Positions 18,532 through 56,592 of a stretch of DNA of 64,000 nt are shown one piece after another. The translations under genes and the position numbers were made by a program. The stretch is from assembly GCA_019912545.1 (NCBI GenBank), contig JAIOIK010000042.1:1-64000 (forward strand), given 5' to 3'. Origin of the DNA: Ignavibacteria bacterium (GTDB lineage: Bacteria; Bacteroidota; Ignavibacteria; Tepidaquicellales; OLB5). Each line of letters starts with the position of its first letter. Within the stretch, counting starts at the first letter, position 1. The notes under the pieces were generated by a model, which was given only the letters and a program-made list of their open reading frames with translations, did not search any database and was not told where the DNA came from.

Positions 18532-18605
18532 GCGCCCATAGCTCAACCGGATAGAGCGACAGCCTTCTAAGCTGTAGGTTACAGGTTCGATTCCTGTTGG
18601 GCGTA
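18532..18605 (+). tRNA. tRNA-Arg (TCT)
   Basis: The acceptor arms GCGCCCA and TGGGCGT pair with one G-U, the D arm is GCTC..GAGC, the anticodon stem ACAGC/GCTGT encloses CTTCTAA with anticodon TCT, and the T arm ACAGG/CCTGT encloses TTCGATT. The discriminator is A. CCA is not encoded. Confidence 0.95.
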
Positions 18606-18623
18606 CAAGAATTACAGGATTAA

Positions 18624-18693
18624 TAGCTCAACCGGTATAGAGCGATCCGCCGGCTGGCGGATAGGTTACAAGGTCCCGTTCCTGTTGGGCGTA
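18624..18693 (+). pseudogene. Degenerate tRNA-Arg copy with a palindrome in place of the anticodon arm
   Basis: This is a partial duplicate of the tRNA-Arg 20 bp upstream. TAGCTCAACCGG (D arm), AGGTTACA and TTCCTGTTGGGCGTAC (T and acceptor side) are retained. The 17-base anticodon arm of the intact gene is replaced by an 18-base palindrome, ATCCGCCGGCTGGCGGAT at 18645-18662 (7-bp stem, 4-base loop). The 5' acceptor strand is lost (AGGATTA instead of GCGCCCA) and the T loop is altered. It cannot fold as a working tRNA. Confidence 0.85.
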
Positions 18694-18726: not shown

Positions 18727-18804
18727 GGTGAGCGTAGTTCAGTTGGTTAGAACATCAGATTGTGGCTCTGAGGGTCGGGGGTTCGAATCCCCTCGCTCAC
18801 CCCA
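18727..18804 (+). tRNA. tRNA-His (GTG)
   Basis: The acceptor arms GTGAGCG and CGCTCAC pair fully, the anticodon loop ATTGTGG-type sequence gives GTG, and the T arm is GGGGG/CCCCT around TTCGAAT. The extra G at 18727 opposite C at 18801 is the histidine-specific G-1:C73 identity pair. CCA is encoded at 18802-18804, unlike the neighbouring tRNA-Arg. Confidence 0.95.
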
Positions 18805-55230: not shown

Positions 55231-55275
55231 TCCCCCCTGCCTGCAGCAGGCAGGCCTTTGTTTTTAAAGGGGGGA
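55231..55275. repeat. Terminator-like hairpin carrying the 19-base palindrome
   Basis: TCCCCCC and GGGGGGA form outer arms. Between them lies CCTGCCTGCAGCAGGCAGG at 55236-55254 (9-bp stem, 1-base loop), identical to the copy at 56554-56572. It follows the ppx stop by 10 bases and may end that transcript. Confidence 0.8.
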
Positions 55276-55424: not shown

Positions 55425-55452
55425 ATAGATTCCTGCCTTCGCAGGAATGACA
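55425..55452. repeat. Short hairpin repeat, GATTCCTGCCTTCGCAGGAATGAC type
   Basis: ATTCCTGCC and GGAAT pair around CTTCGC in the sequence near 55429-55449. A similar form, GGATTCCTGCCTACGCGGGGATGA, lies at 181-204 beside pepT. Both are between genes. Confidence 0.5.
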
Positions 55453-56538: not shown

Positions 56539-56592
56539 GGATTCTTCGCCCGACCTGCCTGCAGCAGGCAGGTAAACCGGTCTCAGAATGAC
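56539..56592. repeat. GGATTCTTCGC..CTCAGAATGAC repeat split by the 19-base palindrome
   Basis: GGATTCTTCGCCCGA and CCGGTCTCAGAATGACAAATC are the two ends of a common hairpin-type repeat. CCTGCCTGCAGCAGGCAGG at 56554-56572 interrupts it and is identical to the copy at 55236-55254. Confidence 0.75.

Follow-up and report, generated by a model that had tools for sequence, protein, structure and literature searches.

Why should an intact tRNA gene be followed, within a few bases, by a partial copy of itself in which a hairpin stands where the anticodon arm belongs? The question is raised by a tRNA-Arg locus of an Ignavibacteria bacterium, read here in a window of 64 kb (the whole stretch of DNA that was analysed). 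The intact gene, with anticodon UCU, lies on the forward strand at 18532-18605, where the original prediction had placed it; the call is borne out by Infernal (RF00005, 72.8 bits, 18532-18605) and ARAGORN (18532-18606), and the sequence folds as a cloverleaf (-26.9 kcal/mol). Only 18 bp (CAAGAATTACAGGATTAA, 18606-18623) separate it from the partial copy on the same strand at 18624-18693, which reads TAGCTCAACCGG(T)ATAGAGCG, a hairpin, AGGTT, a diverged T arm and TGGGCGTA. By alignment, the first part of this remnant (18624-18644, TAGCTCAACCGGTATAGAGCG) is the D arm plus position 26, that is, tRNA positions ~8-26 with one extra T, and the last part (18663-18693) comprises the variable region, the T arm (ACAAGGTCCCGTTCCTGT) and the 3' acceptor strand, positions ~44-73. 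The match that had been claimed for the D arm, variable region and 3' acceptor strand is therefore real, the T arm matching as well in diverged form, and the 5' acceptor strand is indeed gone, since the first six bases are unrelated (GGATTA versus GCGCCC in the intact tRNA). The 17 nt of the anticodon arm (Sprinzl 27-43, ACAGCCTTCTAAGCTGT, made up of ACAGC, CTTCTAA and GCTGT) are exchanged for 18 nt at 18645-18662, again as claimed, but these do not form the perfect palindrome that had been described, the reverse complement showing two mismatches; sequence, fold and the dispersal of the stem in the genome identify them as a hairpin with a 7-bp stem, ATCCGCC/GGCGGAT, and a 4-nt loop, GGCT. The remnant does not qualify as a functional tRNA gene: it has no match to the tRNA covariance model at E<=1, and in its fold the hairpin forms and the cloverleaf does not. 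The next gene, 3' of the remnant and on the strand of tRNA-Arg, is tRNA-His (GUG; 18728-18804, ARAGORN).

A hairpin formed by chance was rejected, since 100 shuffles gave no match and the stem is dispersed in the genome. Pattern counts find it, with at most one mismatch, at 14 sites in the 3.66-Mb window genome against none for the reversed control, so that the lack of dispersal which the original prediction had named as refuting it is not seen; five of the 14 sites fall within tRNA remnants. Comparable GC-rich hairpins number only 15 in the 64-kb window. The window also holds other dispersed palindromes, CCTGCCTGCAGCAGGCAGG, ATTCCTGCCTTCGCAGGAAT and ACCTGCCTGCAGCAGGCAGGT, at 55236-55254, 55429-55448 and 56553-56573. 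Elsewhere in the same genome (contig C143, 3900-4221), two 5' copies of tRNA-Leu(GAG) lie upstream of the intact gene and carry TCCGCC..GGCGGA hairpins after position 8, one of them with two more palindromes; on contig C155 (10663-10680), a short stretch resembling the 5' end of tRNA-Arg, GCGCCCGTAGC, continues as a TCCGCC hairpin; no intact tRNA lies within 1.5 kb, and this may be a solitary scar.

The gene order around the window locus is kept in the genus (sprA-like gene, small ORF, tRNA-Arg, tRNA-His, secD), and the copy itself comes and goes. One or more copies of tRNA-Arg, up- or downstream of the intact gene, are present in G001, G002, G005 and G010 and are decayed in G004 and G007; no copy adjoins tRNA-Arg in four sister genomes (G003, G009, G011 and G012; loci L018, L020, L024 and L025). 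Where the anticodon-arm site of these copies can be read it is a hairpin, with loops and stems that differ among the genomes: ATCCCGCGAAGCGGGAT (17 nt) in G001 and G002, ATCCCGCTCCGGCGGGAT in G005, and ATCCCGCTCTGGCGGGAT in G010, with three tandem copies. A copy that decays with its anticodon arm still normal, the outcome that had been named as refuting an exchange of the arm, was looked for in 12 sister genomes and not seen; with no such intermediate among them, gradual decay of a duplicate was rejected.

The window locus proved to be one case among many. In four genomes belonging to the genus we surveyed the tRNA loci, defining a remnant as a copy within 1.2 kb at E<1e-3, and found one near 45 of 164 intact tRNAs. 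The sites of the hairpins, assigned by an anchor-based method in which ARAGORN-derived coordinates may be off by one, are stereotyped: exact replacement of positions 27-43, or the D-loop, T-arm or T-loop. The first of these (+-1) is seen in 15 of 29 set/isoacceptor combinations, with a nominal p of 7e-11 against a uniform left breakpoint, a value that is indicative only since the events are partly kin by descent. Within the genus it affects Arg-UCU, Gly-UCC, Leu-UAA, Leu-UAG, Ile-UAU, Ala-UGC and Pro-CGG, and outside it Ala, Asn, Gly, Leu, Met, Ser and two Val. In the T loop the insertion falls between GTTC and GA and is often a near-identical 22-mer, TCCCGAAGGGACTCCTTTGGAG (Ile, Ala, Val, Pro, Arg, Ser and Leu); the other sites are insertion in or beside the D loop, replacement of positions 50-57 of the T arm and replacement of 22-27. 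That palindromes may enter at structured sites, as the original prediction proposed, is thus backed at the sequence level far beyond the window locus. Entry at structured tRNA positions is well supported; its route may be homing, palindrome insertion or hairpin exchange.

The same 22-mer also occupies the loops of CCCTCTCCTTT/TAGGAGAGGG hairpins outside tRNAs, which speaks for hairpin loops as a general entry point and keeps alive the idea of the earlier reader. Nested palindromes were observed at L346, L349, L354 and L356, where the loop of a second hairpin (CTCTCCTTT / TAGGAGAG) encloses TCCCGAAGGGACTCCTTTGGAG. A third family of palindromes reads CCTG-ACTGCC..GGCAGT, or the reverse complement of this with CAGG at its end, and sits in the D loop or variable region of remnants of tRNA-Leu CAA (L188, L218, L242), Leu UAA (L183), Thr/Gly (L152) and Arg UCU (L016/L021); its one-sided CCTG tag recalls REP-like tags.

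A small ORF often sits between the intact tRNA and the remnant, and it is this gene that the original prediction overlooked. It encodes a GIY-YIG nuclease (PF01541), two of the tRNA-linked ORFs scoring 70.4 and 58.2 bits, above the cut-off of 22.6. The window genome (G000) holds 12 PF01541 matches above cut-off, and six of its ten small GIY-YIG genes adjoin a tRNA, each on the strand of that tRNA; in G000, G002, G010 and G012 together, about 20 of 33 small GIY-YIG genes lie within 400 bp of a tRNA. A second clade of these nucleases (A), flanked by dispersed palindromes, provides an internal control for the tRNA-linked clade (B), as none of its nine genes is beside a tRNA. In clade A (L109, L111 and L113, on contigs C48 and C12 of the window genome; L370, L374 and L384) the palindromes stand on one or both sides and are of the ATTCCCGC..GCGGGAAT / ATTCCTGC..GCAGGAAT type; by analogy, clade A may be to dispersed palindromes what RAYTs are to REPs.

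Relatives of the tRNA-linked clade, chosen on purpose, were then sought with an alignment of five tRNA-linked proteins as the query and one genome per species. They make up 80 named loci in about 15 phyla, including Bacteroidota, Ignavibacteriota, Cloacimonadota, Calditrichota and Patescibacteria. An intact tRNA lies within 300 bp at 63 of the 80, on the same strand in all 63, for a chance expectation that we estimate at ~1% (about 45 tRNAs in 3.5 Mb). A tRNA remnant, mostly hairpin-interrupted, is found at 54 of these 63, and its start varies from position 1 to 19. An assembly artefact of one metagenome is excluded by the cultivated isolates among the loci (Draconibacterium mangrovi, Chryseobacterium koreense, Flavobacterium sp. 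SUN046, Eudoraea adriatica and Salegentibacter echinorum), and the exact 27-43 replacement is seen in isolates too, for example in D. mangrovi. The element of Flavobacterium sp. SUN046 (L283) is at a tRNA-Arg. Viral contigs yielded one relative, without an adjoining tRNA. We also considered CCTGCCTGCCGGCAGGCAGG as a general repeat of Flavobacteria, and this was wrong in the five Flavobacteria-type genomes tested, each of which has 0-3 copies (at most one mismatch), mostly at the tRNA element; this near-confinement, like the nuclease gene, had escaped the original prediction. Related palindromes are common elsewhere, at up to 114 per genome.

Do tRNA, nuclease and hairpin belong together? On the nuclease tree (79 columns, weakly resolved), tRNA isotype changes 29 times, versus a minimum of 50 in 500 shuffles and of 46 if the shuffling is kept within phyla, and one clade linked to tRNA-Ser (SH-aLRT 99) spans Bacteroidota, Balneolota, Calditrichota and the genus of the window. 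The position class of the hairpin follows the tree as well, with 8 changes where 1000 shuffles gave no fewer than 16 (3/1000 for shuffling within isotype). The tRNA-Asp elements of four phyla have the hairpin TCCCGA...TCGGGA, in which pair 7 is CG, TA, GC or AT, and in several of them the nuclease ends in GRPD/GRPE or similar and then in a stop codon (TAA, TAG or TGA) inside the hairpin; at L292 (Draconibacterium, tRNA-Ala), L290 and L293 the D loop of the remnant contains the stop codon. The variation at pair 7, together with a nuclease stop codon in the hairpin or in the D loop of the remnant, indicates that the parts form one unit. In the Draconibacterium tRNA-Ala element, the terminator-like hairpin of the tRNA recurs as a second copy after the remnant.

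Based on these observations, we propose that the window locus is probably the scar, now lacking an ORF, of a mobile element that resides in tRNA genes. Such an element combines an intact tRNA with a small GIY-YIG gene, free-standing and encoded on the tRNA's strand, and with a partial duplicate of that tRNA in which a hairpin-forming palindrome replaces or interrupts an arm; remnant hairpins of this kind recur at specific positions, linked to the tRNA-associated GIY-YIG clade, in many phyla. We infer that these elements home into tRNA genes, restore the tRNA and leave behind the displaced, hairpin-marked copy. The nuclease would cut unoccupied tRNA genes inside conserved arms; with an occupied locus as template, repair would install the nuclease gene and an intact tRNA, with the displaced partial copy remaining. 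The hairpin in that copy may abolish the cut site as well as the homology by which the element could loop out, and may keep the copy from acting or misfolding as a tRNA; it could either be carried by the element or be inserted or exchanged at the base or loop of a hairpin by the same cut. Later loss of the nuclease gene would leave an intact tRNA and a hairpin scar, as in the window.

Several findings count against this proposal. At an occupied locus, the intact tRNA continues to resemble a target. The GIY-YIG gene is missing from 16 of the 28 genus loci with hairpin-bearing remnants. The window locus has no nuclease ORF and no PF01541 match on its contig (C173), and none of the genomes examined has such a gene at tRNA-Arg(UCU), where its earlier presence would have to be deduced. 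The same 16 loci make a scar without an ORF plausible, as do tRNAs that within the genus bear copies with and without the gene: Gly-UCC has the ORF in G000 and G010 and none in G002, and Pro-CGG has it in G002 and G009 and none in G012, so that each varies by species between ORF plus remnant and remnant only. Finally, similar palindromes are dispersed in the window genus and in several others, and a separate palindrome-inserting activity could be responsible for the hairpins.

A broader version of our proposal, which we offer tentatively, is that in the elements of the different phyla the arms of tRNA genes are recognised as hairpins by the small GIY-YIG nuclease, which exchanges them for palindromic hairpins or tags them with such hairpins, arms and dispersed palindromes being interchangeable substrates of one structure-directed mobility system. 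It is unlikely that REP-like dispersed palindromes with a machinery of their own insert wherever insertion is neutral, tandem tRNA duplicates merely displaying the insertions and the GIY-YIG genes being separate tRNA-seeking elements. The dispersal of the palindromes is in keeping with such independence, as are the presence of the T-loop palindrome in the loops of non-tRNA hairpins and of Y1 transposases (0-11 per genome) flanked by palindromes of their own. However, the entry points are non-random, the 15 of 29 combinations being exact replacements and not plain insertions, the Flavobacteria palindrome is nearly absent outside the tRNA element, hairpin position tracks the nuclease tree, and the palindromes adjacent to Y1 genes are unlike those of the remnants. 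A REP/RAYT origin was rejected on this last ground: at the seven Y1 loci read, the transposases are present with other palindromes and none is flanked by a palindrome of the window type, and the window hairpin bears no GTAG or CGTC tag, its flanks being tRNA sequence. The Y1 genes of the genus (up to 11 per genome; L360, L362, L363, L365 and L367) have palindromes such as CGACCCCGTAGGGGTCG and CCACGACCTTTAGGTCGTGG.

Improbable, in our judgement, is an exchange of hairpins in single-stranded tRNA DNA, in which a cut or a skip at the base of an arm is followed by the joining of another hairpin, or by its copying through template switching, arms and palindromes again being interchangeable. This would fit replacements whose two ends, in many unrelated tRNAs, coincide exactly with the anticodon-arm base (26|44), the nested entry into loops of other hairpins, and the different stems held by the orthologous Arg-UCU site in sister genomes; many entries, however, are pure insertions (21|22, 56|57, 31|32) or remove half an arm (50-57, 22-27), and exchange alone leaves unexplained both the GIY-YIG linkage and the dependence of position on nuclease clade. 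That the remnant is a functional tRNA-like RNA, a processing signal or decoy selected for a hairpin at the anticodon position, is very improbable despite its place between two tRNAs on the same strand and the covariation that keeps pairing in the tRNA-Asp hairpins, since its acceptor stem cannot form, the covariance-model and fold results disfavour such a product, the copy is missing from four sister genomes, and remnants elsewhere begin at any point of the 5' part (positions 1 to 19).

The proposed mode of homing has parallels in known systems. Fungal mitochondrial endonuclease elements of the Allomyces atp6 type bring with them a new 3' end for the host gene. They are alike in that the element's own copy restores the host gene and the old end becomes a remnant, and unlike the elements here in that the host gene encodes a protein and is mitochondrial. 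The nearest known system is SegB of phages T4 and T6, a free-standing GIY-YIG homing endonuclease among phage tRNA genes that cuts inside tRNA genes at RAWTSGAAC (PMC13096335). By our own read-out, this motif on the other strand, GTTCSAWTY, is the T-loop sequence, which is among the sites of hairpin entry and is the one interrupted by the 22-mer. SegB spreads and amplifies tRNA segments by recombination, and was reported to show no preference for particular isotypes (PMC13096335). Compared by description, the two share a GIY-YIG gene adjoining tRNA genes; the proteins here differ in being single-domain, about 80-110 aa, in residing on bacterial chromosomes and in keeping to one tRNA isotype per clade, and the hairpin-replaced remnants present here go unmentioned in the text consulted (PMC13096335). 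The features expected of a free-standing homing element, a gene beside its target, horizontal spread and a clade-specific target, are those found here (63 of 80 loci and the tree by isotype).

Integrative elements at tRNA att sites likewise restore the tRNA, their mobile DNA being bounded by one complete and one partial copy of it (PMC9897764). The GIY-YIG loci have this arrangement, the copies in the window being 18 bp apart. The att-site elements, however, measure about 9-121 kb (PMC9897764) and presumably use an integrase, whereas here the sole gene between the copies is GIY-YIG, in about 250-400 bp, and the partial copy bears a hairpin; no integrase element lies between the copies, which enclose 18 bp in the window and one short GIY-YIG ORF elsewhere. 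The palindromes of REP/RAYT, TIR and RPE families are also short, dispersed, hairpin-forming repeats, some families in unusual gene contexts (De Nocera et al., PMC3733652); the present ones differ in lacking a GTAG/CGTC tag, in being other than the Y1-adjacent palindromes, in their stereotyped tRNA positions and in their GIY-YIG partner. The repetitive hairpin elements of sponge and fungal mitochondria, which proliferate in and beside structured RNA genes, are a further likeness; they are mitochondrial, and the text consulted describes no such nuclease partner and no exact arm replacement (PMC2800124). Among open-licence papers, we found none that reports GIY-YIG genes together with hairpin-bearing remnants of tRNAs.

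Large integrative elements have long been known to land in tRNA genes. The recurring exchange of a tRNA arm for a hairpin beside tRNA genes of several phyla, usually near a small nuclease gene, points to a little-known mobile element that dwells in tRNA genes, of a far smaller class, with a single-domain nuclease of about 80-110 residues and diagnostic hairpin scars. The small "GIY-YIG nuclease family protein" that is commonly annotated thereby gains a testable role and a target, and an origin is offered for many partial tRNA genes. These observations may also provide a route to asking how short palindromes reach structured sites in bacterial genomes.
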